This document shows, piece after piece, positions 241 to 15,495 of a stretch of 26,866 bases of DNA. The stretch lies in the NCBI GenBank assembly GCA_946478895.1, contig CAMLDY010000030.1, positions 1 to 26,866 of the forward strand, in the 5' to 3' direction. The stretch's first letter is position 1. Each line of letters opens with the position of its first letter. The stretch comes from an uncultured Gemmatimonadota bacterium. Lineage in GTDB: Bacteria > Gemmatimonadota > Gemmatimonadetes > Gemmatimonadales > Gemmatimonadaceae. A model generated the notes under the pieces. The model did not search any database. It was not told the origin of the DNA and saw only the letters and a list, made by a program, of their open reading frames with translations. The position numbers and the translations under genes are program-made.

Positions 241-433
241 AACTGTAACGGAACGGGTGCGAGATGTGAGTAGCATAGTGGCCAGTTTGAGGGTTCAGGG
301 ACGTCGGGACGTTACCGGCGCATCCACGGTACCGGCAACGCTTTTGCCCTACTCCACTTGGAAACGTCCCGACGTAGTGAACCAATCACTTGCATCGACG
401 CTACTGACGTCTCGCACCCGTTCCGTTGCAGTT
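241..433. repeat. Intergenic palindromic repeat element, copy 1 (193 bp)
   Basis: The left end begins AACTGTAACGGAACGGGTGC (241-260). The right end is its inverted counterpart, finishing at 433. Over the outer 34 positions the arms match at 31; two of the three differences would be U-G wobbles in RNA. Further in, ACGTCGGGACGT (301-312) is inverted exactly as ACGTCCCGACGT (364-375), with GTTCA two or three bases outside each. The 51-nt centre between them is unrelated to that of copy 2. The element lies between the convergent ends of the metallopeptidase and DinB-like genes. No clear target-site duplication is visible. The short ORFs across it have no recognisable protein character. Confidence 0.85.
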
Positions 434-5236: not shown

Positions 5237-6544
5237 GTGTTCGGGGCCCTTAAGGCAGCCCCGACGTTGCCGCCGGCCGTGCCTCTCGTCCATATCGCGA
5301 CGCCCCGCCTCAGCCGTAGCGGCCAGGCGTGTCCACAGTGCGCGCAGTCGGGAGGATTTCTGGGACAATCAGTCTCACGTGAATACATCGGGTCCGCGGT
5401 CGCCGCGGGACTCAGATACGTTACCGACGCGATGCCGGGAATCCGCCGGCACCGCCACGGTCGCGGCTTCACGTACGTCGGACCCGACGGAACCGTCATC
5501 AGATCCACCGAATCCCTGAAGCGTTTTCGGTCTCTCGTGATACCGCCCGCGTGGACGGAGGTCTGGATTTGTCCGCACGAGGATGGCCACCTCCAGGTCA
5601 CCGCGCGCGACGCGCGCGGGCGAAAGCAGTACCGCTACCATCCGCAGTTCAGACAGCACCGCGACGGAACCAAGTTCGAGCGCATGTTCGAGCTGAGCGA
5701 TGTGCTCTGGAAGATCCGCGAACGAGTCGAATCGGACATCGCGCTGCCCGGTCTCGCCCGCGACAAGATCATGGCGACCGTGGTTTGGCTGCTTGAGACG
5801 ACGCTGATCCGCATTGGCTCGGACGAGTATCGCAAAGCCAACAAGTCGTTCGGCCTCACGACCCTGCGGCGCCGGCACGTCGCGGTGGTCGGCTCAGAGC
5901 TTCGCTTCGAGTTCCGCGGGAAGAGCGGAATTCAGCACGCCGTCTCGGTTACTGACAAGCGCATCGCGAGGATCGTCCAGCGCTGCCAGGAGCTGCGCGG
6001 CGAGGAGCTGTTCAAGTACCTCGATGACGAAGGCAAGCGTCAGGAAGTAGACGCCGAAGACGTCAATGCGTACCTGCAGGAGATCACCGGGCGCGACATT
6101 ACCGCCAAGGATTTCCGTACCTGGGCGGGAACGATGCTCGCCGCCGAAGCGTTGCGCGCCATGGGCCCCGCAAAGACCAAGCGCGAGGCGGAGCGAAACA
6201 TTGTCGCTGCTGTCGACATGACGGCGAAGAGACTCGGCAACACCCGCAGCGTCTGCCGCAAGTACTACATCCATCCCGCGCTGATCGAGGCCTACCTCGA
6301 TGGTTCGGTGCTGCCGCCGATGCCCGAACGCCGGTGGAACAAGCGCAAATCGAAGGGACCGACGCTGCGTCAGCATGAGATGGATGTGCTCGCGTTCATC
6401 AAAGCGCGTCTCAAGGGCAAGTCCCGACGCGCCGCTAATCCGCGCCCGATTAAGCTCGTCGAATCGGAAGCGGCGACGGAACCATCGCAGCCAGCCACGG
6501 AGCCGGCTCAGGCGGCTGCGGCAGACGGCGAAACCGACAGCTAG
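5237..6544 (+). CDS. Bacterial DNA topoisomerase IB
   Basis: A type IB topoisomerase of the short bacterial/poxvirus-like class, which relaxes supercoils by making a transient 3'-phosphotyrosine nick. The active-site set can be followed in order: Arg192 (LIRIGSDEYRKANKSFG), Lys229 (FRGKSG), Arg294 (TAKDFRTWAGT), Asn335 in place of the poxvirus His (GNTRSVCR), and nucleophile Tyr344 in RKYYIHP. The Asn-to-Tyr spacing of nine equals that which I recall for Deinococcus TopIB. The catalytic domain ends near 358 and a basic then Ala/Glu/Pro-rich tail follows. The start is uncertain: the family homology begins near residue 52, the GTG at 5237 has an AGGA touching it, and there is no ATG in frame before the domain. 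It ends on a CTAG shared with the HNH gene. Confidence 0.9.
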   Translation: MFGALKAAPTLPPAVPLVHIATPRLSRSGQACPQCAQSGGFLGQSVSREYIGSAVAAGLRYVTDAMPGIRRHRHGRGFTYVGPDGTVIRSTESLKRFRSLVIPPAWTEVWICPHEDGHLQVTARDARGRKQYRYHPQFRQHRDGTKFERMFELSDVLWKIRERVESDIALPGLARDKIMATVVWLLETTLIRIGSDEYRKANKSFGLTTLRRRHVAVVGSELRFEFRGKSGIQHAVSVTDKRIARIVQRCQELRGEELFKYLDDEGKRQEVDAEDVNAYLQEITGRDITAKDFRTWAGTMLAAEALRAMGPAKTKREAERNIVAAVDMTAKRLGNTRSVCRKYYIHPALIEAYLDGSVLPPMPERRWNKRKSKGPTLRQHEMDVLAFIKARLKGKSRRAANPRPIKLVESEAATEPSQPATEPAQAAAADGETDS

Positions 6545-12971: not shown

Positions 12972-13865
12972 ATGGCTCAGCCAAACCTGGAGCAGCTACT
13001 CGAAGCCGGTGTCCACTTCGGACACCAGACCCGCCGCTGGAACCCGAAGATGCGTCGTTTCATCTTCGCCGAGCGCAACGGCATTCACATCATCGACCTG
13101 CAGAAGACGCTGCGTCAGCTGGAGCTGGCTCAGAAGCTCGCCCGCGAAGTCATCCTTCGTGGCGACAACGTCCTCTTCGTCTGCACCAAGCGCCAGCTCG
13201 TCAATATCGTGAAGAGCGAGGCCGAGCGTTGCGGAGCGATGTACGTGACCGAGAGATGGCTGGGTGGACTGCTGACCAACTTCCAGACGGTGAAGAAGCA
13301 GGTTCGCCGCCTGAAGGAGCTGGAAGCTGGGTCCGAGGCCGGCGGTGATTTCGAGAACTACACCAAGAAAGAGCAGCTGATGATGTCACGTCAGCGCGAC
13401 AAGCTTTCAAAGAACCTTGCTGGTATCAAGAACCTTACGAGACTGCCCGGACTCATGTTCGTGATCGACTCCAAGAAGGAGCGCATCGCGGTCAACGAGG
13501 CCAACAAGCTGAACATCCCGATCATCGCGCTGGTCGACACCAACGCCGATCCCGATCTGATCACCGTTCCGATCGCCGGCAACGATGACGCGATCCGCTC
13601 CGTCGAGCTGATGACCAAGGCGATTGCCGATGCGATCGTCGAGGCTCGGAGAGAGGCACCGGTACGCGAGGAAGTCGAGGAGGCCGAATCGTACACCTAC
13701 AGCTCCGATCGCGGCGCGGAGCCCGAGGGCGAGGGCGACAAGAAGAGAAAGAGACGGCCACGCAGGCGACGGGCGAAGCCCGAAGCGATTGCCGCGCGGC
13801 TCAAGACAGGCGGCGACGAAGGTGGCGGAGCAGAGGAAGCCACCGAGACCGAGCAGGAAGGTTAA
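12972..13865 (+). CDS. rpsB: 30S ribosomal protein S2 with an extended charged tail
   Basis: A 297-residue S2. The core starts [20 protein letters not shown] and contains [39 protein letters not shown] and the [24 protein letters not shown] region. The core ends near residue 232, where E. coli S2 also ends; the last 60-odd residues are an added low-complexity tail with a Lys/Arg-rich patch ([14 protein letters not shown]) followed by Gly/Glu-rich sequence. The start at 12972 fits the family and has AAGGA upstream; the longer open frame into rpsI is not used. A hairpin terminator follows directly. Confidence 0.96.
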
Positions 13866-13870
13866 CTTTC

Positions 13871-13899
13871 ACGCCGCCGGAGAACTCCGGCGGCGTTTT
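13871..13899 (+). terminator. Rho-independent terminator (possible attenuator) between rpsB and tsf
   Basis: ACGCCGCCGGAG (13871-13882) is followed by AA and then its exact inverse CTCCGGCGGCGT (13885-13896), and the run of T ends at 13899. A 12-bp GC-rich stem with four T is a good intrinsic terminator. It stands five bases after the rpsB stop and 15 before tsf, so it may end most transcripts from the rplM promoter and leave partial read-through into tsf. Confidence 0.78.
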
Positions 13900-13914
13900 A
13901 ACGAGATACGATAT

Positions 13915-14526
13915 ATGACAATGACCAAAGAGAAGTTCACCGCGAAGGATGTCCAGTCACTGCGCCAGAAGACCGGCGCGGGGATGATGGAATGCAAGAA
14001 GGCGCTCGAGGAAACCAATGGCGACATGGACAAGGCCGTCGAGTACCTTCGCGCCAAAGGAATCGCCAAGGCGGAGAAGCGCGTCGGCAAGCAGACCAGC
14101 GAGGGCGTGATCGGCAGCTACATCCACCACAACGCGAAGGTCGGCGTGATGGTGGAAGTGAACTGCGAGACGGACTTCGTCGCGCGCACCGACGACTTCA
14201 AGCAGCTGGTGAAGTACATCGCCGAGCACATCGCGGCCGCGGCTCCGGTTGCGGTCGACAAGGATCAGGTTCCGGCCGACAAGGTCGAGAAGGAGAAGCG
14301 CATCTTCGTCGAGCAGGTCAGGGAGAGCGGCAAGCCCGATCACCTGATCGAGAAGATCGTCGCCGGCAAGATCGAGGCGTACTACAAGGATGTCGCGCTG
14401 GTCCACCAGGCCTGGATCCGGGAGCCGAAGAAGACGATCGGCGATCTGATCAAGGAAGCGTCGGCGAAGGTTGGAGAGAACATCCAGGTGAGAAGGTTCG
14501 TCAGGTTCCAGATGGGGGAAGAGTAG
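13915..14526 (+). CDS. tsf: Elongation factor Ts
   Basis: A 203-residue EF-Ts, the nucleotide exchange factor for EF-Tu. The N-terminal UBA-like domain contains VQSLRQKTGAGMMECKKALE and KAVEYLRAKGIAKAEKR; the core has the invariant NCETDFVARTDDFK and ends in IGDLIKEASAKVGENIQVRRF. It is of the short form (about 200 residues, as in Thermus) with one core subdomain, against about 280 in E. coli. ATG at 13915 is used; ATG at 13921 is also possible, and the ribosome binding site is weak. The gene lies between a terminator hairpin and a palindromic repeat. Confidence 0.96.
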   Translation: MTMTKEKFTAKDVQSLRQKTGAGMMECKKALEETNGDMDKAVEYLRAKGIAKAEKRVGKQTSEGVIGSYIHHNAKVGVMVEVNCETDFVARTDDFKQLVKYIAEHIAAAAPVAVDKDQVPADKVEKEKRIFVEQVRESGKPDHLIEKIVAGKIEAYYKDVALVHQAWIREPKKTIGDLIKEASAKVGENIQVRRFVRFQMGEE

Positions 14527-14557
14527 AACCAGGCAACTCGAGCCACTCCGGCTTGCC

Positions 14558-14751
14558 AACTGCAAACGAACGGGTGCCAGACGTCAGAGAGCGCAGATGT
14601 CAGTTATCCGTTCACGACGTCGGGACGTCACCAGAACGATTGACGCTACAAGCAGCTGCATGTGCCGTAAGTCGAGTAGTGACATCCCGACGTCGTTAAC
14701 TAACAGCGCGCAACTACGCTACTGACGTCTGGCACCCGTTCAGTTGCAGTT
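14558..14751. repeat. Intergenic palindromic repeat element, copy 2 (194 bp)
   Basis: The left end begins AACTGCAAACGAACGGGTGC (14558-14577) and the right end is its inverse, ending at 14751; the outer 30 positions of the arms match at 28. Inside, CACGACGTCGGGACGTC (14614-14629) is inverted as GACATCCCGACGTCGT (about 14680-14695) with one change. Ends, inner module, spacing (59 bases from end to inner module, 60 in copy 1) and total length agree with the element at 241-433, while the centre differs. Copy 1 has GCGAGA in both arms where this copy has GCCAGA in both. It fills most of the 255-bp gap between tsf and pyrH. Confidence 0.85.
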
Positions 14752-14781
14752 TATTTCCTAGACCGTTCACCCAACTCCGAC

Positions 14782-15495
14782 TTGCCCGACCTCAAGTACA
14801 ACCGCGTCCTCCTCAAAATTTCCGGCGAAGCCCTCGCCGGGAAAAAGGCCACCGGTTTCGACTTCGAGATTCTGAAACGGCTCGCCACCGAGATCAGTGA
14901 CATCGCCAAGATGGGCGCGAGCGTGGGGCTGGTGATCGGGGGCGGCAACATCGTCCGCGGGGTGCAGCTGTCGAAGATGGGAATGGAACGCGCCGGCGCC
15001 GACTACATGGGGATGCTCGGCACCGTCATCAACGCGCTCGCGCTGCAGGATGTGCTCGAGAAGGCGGAGCTCGAGACGCGCGTCATGACTGCGATCGCGA
15101 TGGAATCGATCGCCGAGCCGTTCATCAGACGCCGCGCGATGCGGCACTTCGAAAAAGGACGCGTCGTCATCTTCGCCGCCGGGACCGGCAACCCCTATTT
15201 TTCCACCGATACAGCGGCCGCGCTGCGAGCGATCCAGATCCACGCCGACGTCATCATCAAGGCGACGAGCGTCGACGGCGTTTACAGCGCCGACCCCAAG
15301 CGCGATCCGGATGCGACGCGCTTTACCGAGATCAGCTACCGCGATGTCATGGTCAACGAGCTAGGTGTGATGGACCAGACGGCCATCACTCTCTGCAAGG
15401 AGAACAAGCTCCCGATCATCGTACTCAACATTCACCGTCACGGAGAGGTTGCGAAGGCGCTGCTGGGCGAGCGCGTCGGAACGATCGTACAATGA
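14782..15495 (+). CDS. pyrH: UMP kinase
   Basis: A 237-residue bacterial UMP kinase (amino-acid-kinase fold) that makes UDP for RNA, DNA and cell-wall precursors. It has YNRVLLKISGEALAG at the start, the phosphate-binding GGGNIVRGV (53-61), FAAGTGNPYFSTDTAAALRA (131-150) and the KATSVDGVYSADPK segment (160-173). The only usable start near the conserved N-terminus is a TTG at 14782 with no clear ribosome binding site; the palindromic element ends 30 bases upstream. Its stop overlaps frr (ATGA). Confidence 0.95.
   Translation: MPDLKYNRVLLKISGEALAGKKATGFDFEILKRLATEISDIAKMGASVGLVIGGGNIVRGVQLSKMGMERAGADYMGMLGTVINALALQDVLEKAELETRVMTAIAMESIAEPFIRRRAMRHFEKGRVVIFAAGTGNPYFSTDTAAALRAIQIHADVIIKATSVDGVYSADPKRDPDATRFTEISYRDVMVNELGVMDQTAITLCKENKLPIIVLNIHRHGEVAKALLGERVGTIVQ

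Follow-up and report, generated by a model that had tools for sequence, protein, structure and literature searches.

A 26,866-nucleotide stretch of DNA from an uncultured Gemmatimonadota bacterium (contig CAMLDY010000030.1; the whole stretch is called the window below) carries two palindromic elements of about 193 bp without an open reading frame (ORF), and their relatives in other genomes include a longer form in which the same kind of arms enclose a gene for S23, the protein of ribosomal RNA (rRNA) intervening sequences (IVSs). In our judgment the chances are about even that the 193-bp palindromes are non-autonomous members, resembling miniature inverted-repeat transposable elements (MITEs), of an S23-coding mobile palindromic element that is kin to the rRNA IVSs. 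The window itself contributes two short copies only, and the weight of the argument lies in the S23-coding relatives reached from them.

The short palindromes and their S23-coding relatives

The initial annotation had placed two copies of one family at 241-433 and 14558-14751, with terminal inverted repeats and an inner inverted ACGTCGGGACGT, and each of these observations stands: the copies measure 193 and 194 bp and lie far above chance, complementary arms can be measured at the ends of both, and the inverted ACGTCGGGACGT is present in the inner part of both. The parts of the two elements are as follows.

241..433, no strand assigned: copy 1, 193-bp ORF-less palindromic element, intergenic, adjoining a DinB-family gene
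241..275, + strand: left terminal arm of copy 1, AACTG...GAACGGGTGC...AGTAGC, inside a 53-nt inverted pair
399..433, - strand: right terminal arm of copy 1, inside the 53-nt inverted pair
301..316, + strand: left inner arm of copy 1, 94% complementary to 360-375
360..375, - strand: right inner arm of copy 1, pairing with 301-316
14558..14751, no strand assigned: copy 2, 194-bp ORF-less palindromic element, between tsf and a co-directional pyrH-like gene
14558..14587, + strand: left terminal arm of copy 2, 30 nt, 93% complementary
14722..14751, - strand: right terminal arm of copy 2, partner of 14558..14587
14590..14631, + strand: left middle and inner arm of copy 2, 42 nt, 74% complementary
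14679..14720, - strand: right middle and inner arm of copy 2, partner of 14590..14631

The main arms of copy 1 (53 nt, 79% complementary) extend 7 bases past each element end, and its inner arms (16 nt) are 94% complementary. Folded as single-stranded DNA, each copy forms one long hairpin, with -63.5 kcal/mol (z -9.8) for copy 1 and -65.9 kcal/mol (z -12.3) for copy 2, values equaled by 0 of 200 shuffles in either case. The end motif matches four times in the window, twice in each copy, where 0.00 matches are expected. Because the four arms can be aligned along their full length, with a mean column identity of 78%, each copy amounts to a single imperfect palindrome of ~190 bp and not two unrelated ends; the Watson-Crick share of the 58 stem pairs is 88% and 84% in the window copies, and averages 86% over the 64 copies described below. 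Within the window, tblastn gave no match to an S23-like ORF at E<=1, and there were no Rfam matches at gathering thresholds.

A scan of 84,980 species genomes for the exact end pattern returned six stretches, all in Gemmatimonadales bacterium UBA4718 (G001). BLAST against G001 produced 76 matches, in many cases one palindrome hit in both orientations, and a motif scan with up to 3 mismatches gave 62 matches compared with 4 when the pattern was reversed. The element is present in eight of 148 genomes sampled from one Gemmatimonadales family, scanned with at most five candidates scored per genome, and these eight have 12 to 92 end-motif matches each and 0 or 1 for the reversed pattern. The earlier expectation of many copies per genome is thus supported in these relatives. 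From the eight carriers and the window we extracted 64 copies with a mean pairwise identity of 0.68, all 185-200 bp long, a range that is partly built in because a copy was extracted only if its two ends had an outer spacing of 160-200 bp. The strict end pattern was absent from viral contigs, no element DNA was found in plasmids, and no S23 protein was found in annotated phages.

Among the motif-bearing stretches that were read, 27 from a second carrier (G005) and 13 from G001, two have opposed ends ~580-590 bp apart. In both of these, L148 in G005 and L168 in G001, the arms of the family are present and an ORF replaces the loop. The two ORFs match PF05635, the "23S rRNA-intervening sequence protein" (E=1.1e-30 and 3e-29), as well as TIGR02436, "four helix bundle protein". 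The initial annotation proposed to look for a transposase gene with matching ends; a coding sibling with matching ends exists, and it encodes S23 and no known transposase. S23 is the one protein tied to the arms. A predicted AlphaFold2 model of the L148 protein (mean pLDDT 92.3, from a 14-row alignment) has matches to 2GSC and 2RLD, both S23 structures, and weaker ones to the protein Avd (8ub7, 4dwl; template modeling score about 0.7 by query and 0.8 by target, E 0.02-0.1); Avd and PF05635 are treated as homologous in passages of PMC10053308. A tatA-like gene adjoins both L148 and L168 and is, by eye, apparently the same neighbor, so that L148 and L168 are probably orthologs.

Of 249 Gemmatimonadota genomes sampled, 131 have PF05635 (130 of them above the curated cut-off), with up to 14 matches per genome among those listed; none of 14 control genomes has it. 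Several carriers also hold a divergent S23 subfamily with long arms of its own (L180, L194, L199, L203, L197), up to 123 bp long and 96% complementary, some of them built on GACTGCGGACTAACTGC-like units.

The association of S23 genes with inverted repeats was measured by blastn of the left flank against the reverse-complemented right flank, up to 350 bp per side, with windows shifted by 1.0-1.1 kb within the same loci, S23 region masked, as controls. At E<1e-5, inverted repeats were found at 24 of 25 testable carrier loci (29 loci; shifted controls 0/99), at 22 of 28 testable best-scoring loci across the phylum (29 loci; 0/110), at 8 of 10 cyanobacterial plasmid loci (0/39; 10/10 of these loci at E<=0.001) and at 7 of 9 loci from IMG/VR, of which L307 and L308 look alike (0/28). 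Pooled, 61 of 72 S23 loci lie inside inverted repeats at this threshold compared with 0 of 276 shifted controls, and 68/72 compared with 10/276 at E<1e-2, although the tested loci are not independent and the phylum set consists of best-scoring loci. Left out were L202, the second half of the L200 gene and 1 of 30 PF05635 places, together with four carrier loci and one phylum locus too near a contig end; the cyanobacterial set is 10 of the 16 plasmid records found. By eye, the arms of the phylum-wide and cyanobacterial loci are mostly inverted tandem repeats with units of ~5-8 bp. The S23 element lies inside a recognizable gene cluster at 4 of the 10 cyanobacterial plasmid loci, namely between cas6 and cas4 (two loci), between cas10 and cmr3 (one locus) and between ribonucleotide reductase genes, on the opposite strand (one locus). 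S23 genes with inverted tandem repeats inside CRISPR-cas clusters are seen at L234, L236 and L237.

A de novo census of palindromes in 1.19 Mb of G005 recovered 48 palindromic loci, of which exactly two have loops of at least 280 nt, and these are the only two S23 places found in that stretch. The same genome has a separate family of palindromes of ~440-510 bp (GTCCTCTTCGGCTCC...), with no S23 and, by eye, no obvious shared ORF; one of them lies at the orthologous site of the G001 element L028.

C12:579208-579682: G005 non-S23 palindrome (L271)
C5:426758-427270 and 436838-437280: G005 non-S23 palindromes (L298)
C5:502634-503129: G005 non-S23 palindrome (L302)

Among 25 carrier S23 loci, 12 arm families can be distinguished. 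Over 24 carrier loci, protein identity is 0.714 within arm families and 0.406 between them, and in the classic S23 subfamily alone it is 0.709 and 0.549 (0 of 5000 permutations in both cases). Arm family and S23 protein clade go together, in part through common descent. Within the 1.19 Mb of G005, ORF-less palindromes of ~170-200 bp were found for 4/4 arm families with an S23 gene in that genome (10, 3, 1 and 1 palindromes per family), and for 0/8 arm families without one. The arms of L148 are nearer to its own G005 short copies (0.82) than to others (0.71).

Dispersal, ends and insertion sites

We compared 57 element sites with the 1.19 Mb of G005 (four of them G005's own, from other contigs) and found both flanks for 19, representing 16 distinct sites, whose occupancy was read by eye. 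Four of the 16 are empty in G005 (tsf-pyrH, which is the site of window copy 2; L109; L127; L015/L133), four hold the same family (L035, L045/L129, L058, L067), four hold a different palindrome (L016, L022, L110 and L028, the last of the non-S23 type by census coordinates) and the remaining four are without an assigned state (L009, L021, L061, L161). At the L015/L133 site (C5:317.6k) only the outermost hexamers are left in G005, as AACTGC/TGCAGTT. At tsf-pyrH the element is also present in G001 and G136 and absent from G005. The initial annotation had asked whether copies occur only as conserved parts of orthologous intergenic regions with no empty sites in relatives, and the outcome is mixed, in that some copies are orthologous and empty sites exist.

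Some copies are recently dispersed. In G136, three copies 94-96% identical occupy sites whose flanks, compared for up to 600 bp per side, show no similarity, and in G141 two 95% identical copies also share, by eye, an outer palindrome, as if a nested composite had spread as a whole. Extra end words occur within 80 bp outside the element at 17 of 63 copies, and number two in the stretches 540-700 bp upstream (at most 63). Elements that sit, in Russian-doll fashion, within or alongside parts of other palindromes with the same outermost ends are seen at L016, L059, L034 and L061 (G001), L066 and L075 (G136) and L111 and L127 (G141).

The ends AACTG/CAGTT are sharp, with A as the first base in 48 of 61 copies and T as the last in 54 of 61, and the palindrome does not continue past the element ends (2.57, compared with 2.57 +- 0.16 in controls). 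The MITE-like option among those first considered for the family is thus supported: the copies are dispersed and share sharp ends, a relative has empty sites, and a coding sibling with matching ends exists. The flanks of 62 of the 64 copies hold ORFs, and by automatic gene calls these 62 copies lie between co-directional (35), convergent (21) or divergent genes (6).

In the window, the genes next to the copies are the following.

484-1167, - strand: DinB-family gene, neighbor of copy 1 (Pfam match)
13624..14526, + strand: tsf, elongation factor Ts, upstream of copy 2 (PF00889, E=1.9e-37; start codon called mechanically)
14782..15495, + strand: pyrH-like ORF, UMP kinase, downstream of copy 2 (identity by eye)

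A bacterial topoisomerase IB gene (PF01028, PF21338) lies elsewhere in the window, at 5237-6544. The tsf-pyrH gap (window 14527-14781; L085, L086, L087, L089, L096) carries unrelated palindromic repeats across Gemmatimonadota genomes and looks as if it were a favored landing site for palindromes. At L086, L087, L089 and L096 the gap holds ORF-less palindromes built much like the tandem-repeat arms of the S23 loci, in genomes without a match to the window family. By eye, the repeat unit of the gap palindrome recurs at a fetched S23 locus of the same genome in G081 (GATCAGT; L086, L222) and G040 (CAGGTAT; L089, L231), and for G062 and G007, with one S23 locus fetched per genome as well, the arms do not show it.

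Possible mechanism and alternative explanations

From these observations we infer S23 to be the putative mover of the palindromes. The full-length form would be an element of about 570-600 bp in which the same two arms of ~75-80 nt flank a loop with the four-helix-bundle gene for S23, also called the intervening sequence protein (IVP; PF05635). S23, which we take to be an oligomer by analogy with its relatives, would recognize the extruded DNA hairpin that the arms form and act in trans, letting the short copies be copied or inserted. Host enzymes of replication or repair would supply the DNA chemistry, and are invoked because S23 is without a known nuclease or polymerase fold. Within operons such as tsf-pyrH, RNase III would probably cut the hairpin that an element adds to the transcript, as in the rRNA IVSs, so that insertions would stay nearly harmless.

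Several points weigh against movement by S23. The coding copies L148 and L168 look orthologous, so that this copy has stayed put. One carrier (G061) has short copies and no PF05635 match. No inverted repeat was found at E<1e-5 at 11 of the 72 S23 loci, and the controls of that test were shifted windows and not other small genes, which are covered only by the G005 census. Target-site duplication was not detected in 61 copies (the longest flank repeat averages 2.31, compared with 2.19 +- 0.13 when flanks are mispaired, and 57 of 300 controls reach the observed average). The left arm of L168 scores 0.757 with G001 short copies and 0.768 with those of G005, in a comparison in which its right arm was masked in part; because nearness of the coding arms to their own short copies is seen for L148 and not for the L168 left arm, concerted evolution of the two is not claimed. 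Shared descent, or copying from one arm to the other, could account for part of the arm/protein association and of the covariation described below. Finally, among resident insertion sequence (IS) transposases the search in the carriers covered PF01797 alone.

We consider it possible, if on balance doubtful, that S23 is a passenger or an RNA-binding helper that protects or processes the hairpin transcript, with the palindromes spreading by slippage of host replication and template switching at palindromes, or through a resident IS enzyme. The S23 model has no known catalytic fold, and its structural relative Avd belongs, by the titles of PDB entries, to a ribonucleoprotein reverse transcriptase. 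Arms made of tandem 7-8-mers suggest slippage, and the hexamer remnant in G005 is what a slippage deletion would leave; however, slippage alone puts no near-identical copies at unrelated sites, and the ORF-less families track the coding sibling in the 1.19 Mb of G005. Passages of PMC4990558 on the Coxiella IVS hypothesize that the RNA is more relevant than S23p.

The pairing of the arms is conserved. In the 64-copy alignment, 88.6% of the cells of a 68-pair hairpin pair (shuffled 84.7%, slid 32-40%), and 210 cells carry compensating changes on both sides (shuffled 109 +- 8, 0 of 500; slid 44-62), with the reservation that the structure was derived from the same alignment, which favors paired cells, and that the outer ends were part of copy selection. 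The inner pairs 66-150, 68-147 and 73-142 also show compensation. Selection at the RNA level is expected to favor G.U over A.C mismatches on the transcribed strand. Over the 35 copies between co-directional genes these occur 61 to 60 (p = 1), and with this balance the pairing is more likely kept at the DNA level or through arm-to-arm copying.

Hence a structured RNA family or attenuator conserved between genes, one of the possibilities first raised for these elements, appears improbable. The strong fold and covariation, the 35 of 62 copies between co-directional genes and the presence of copy 2 at tsf-pyrH in the window, G001 and G136 alike would all suit such an RNA, but the G.U/A.C balance would not, and neither would the empty orthologous sites in G005, the 21 of 62 copies between convergent genes or the lack of an Rfam match in the window.

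A retro-mobile route, in which a reverse transcriptase copies the elements and S23 assists it in the manner of Avd, is, in our view, quite improbable. The S23 model does resemble Avd (4DWL, 8UB7), the accessory protein of the reverse-transcriptase complexes of diversity-generating retroelements (DGRs), with a similar predicted fold; unlike in DGRs, a reverse transcriptase (PF00078) was found in one of the eight carriers only (G145; draft genomes), which disfavors this route. PF01797, the transposase of repetitive extragenic palindromic (REP) elements, was likewise found in one of the eight (G124; draft genomes), so that neither reverse transcriptase nor Y1 transposase looks like a general mover. 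Elements of the REP, BIME (bacterial interspersed mosaic element) or REPIN (REP doublet forming hairpins) type, moved by a RAYT (REP-associated tyrosine transposase of the Y1 type), are also intergenic palindromes without a gene of their own (excerpts of PMC3733652 and PMC3116915), and the elements here share with them the lack of target duplication and a scarcity between divergent genes (6/62); but the unit is ~190 bp (185-200 bp) with ends AACTG/CAGTT, where the title and abstract of PMC3733652 describe REPs as units of 20-40 bp whose tagged end is GTAG or CGTC, and PF01797 matches in 1/8 carriers compared with 5/14 control genomes. We therefore reject the REP/RAYT explanation as largely refuted and very unlikely indeed, and the earlier suggestion of paired REP-like units gains no support.

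Relation to known elements and significance

According to excerpts of PMC4990558, the 23S rRNA IVSs of Coxiella, Leptospira, Xanthomonas and Brucella have, like the long form here, a stem-loop with an S23/PF05635 gene in the loop and terminal inverted repeats, and the Coxiella IVS is preceded by a variable number of heptameric repeats. These heptamers resemble the arms of many of the S23 loci in this analysis. Unlike the 23S rRNA IVSs, the elements described here are intergenic, number several to many per genome and have ORF-less siblings of ~190 bp; the window copies lie outside 23S rRNA genes, between protein genes, with no Rfam rRNA match in the window. With MITEs they share short length, the lack of an ORF, terminal inverted repeats, dispersal and ends common to a longer coding element. 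In contrast to MITEs they make no target-site duplication, their coding sibling encodes S23 and not a transposase, and they are palindromic throughout and not only at the ends. Cyanobacterial short tandemly repeated repetitive (STRR) sequences also consist of short tandem repeats between genes. STRRs are described as direct tandem repeats without a gene, whereas the repeats flanking the cyanobacterial plasmid S23 genes are inverted.

A broader proposal, to which we incline less than to its contrary, is that S23/IVP proteins serve specifically to mobilize palindromic elements of a widespread class without a recognized recombinase, transposase or reverse transcriptase, and that rRNA IVSs, the inverted heptamer repeats around cyanobacterial and Gemmatimonadota S23 genes and the MITE-like palindromes are all products of one system. 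Excerpts of PMC4990558 cite a 1993 proposal that IVSs are possible mobile elements whose ORF is needed for mobility, and call IVS function and origin unclear as of 2016; in passages of PMC11270868 (2024), IVP ORFs occur in 16S and 23S rRNA insertions of candidate phyla radiation bacteria and the protein is "functionally uncharacterized". At the level of titles and abstracts in the open-access literature, none of the matches listed describes S23 genes in intergenic palindromes or linked to MITE-like repeats.

For decades, S23/IVP genes have been unexplained passengers of rRNA genes. Intergenic elements that are dispersed, coding and non-coding versions whose arms match within a single genome, sites found empty and copies of recent origin together make the old question of whether these passengers can move testable, and allow S23 to be assayed against a defined nucleic-acid substrate. 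The finding may also give heptamer repeats and palindromic MITE-like repeats a common origin in more than one phylum.
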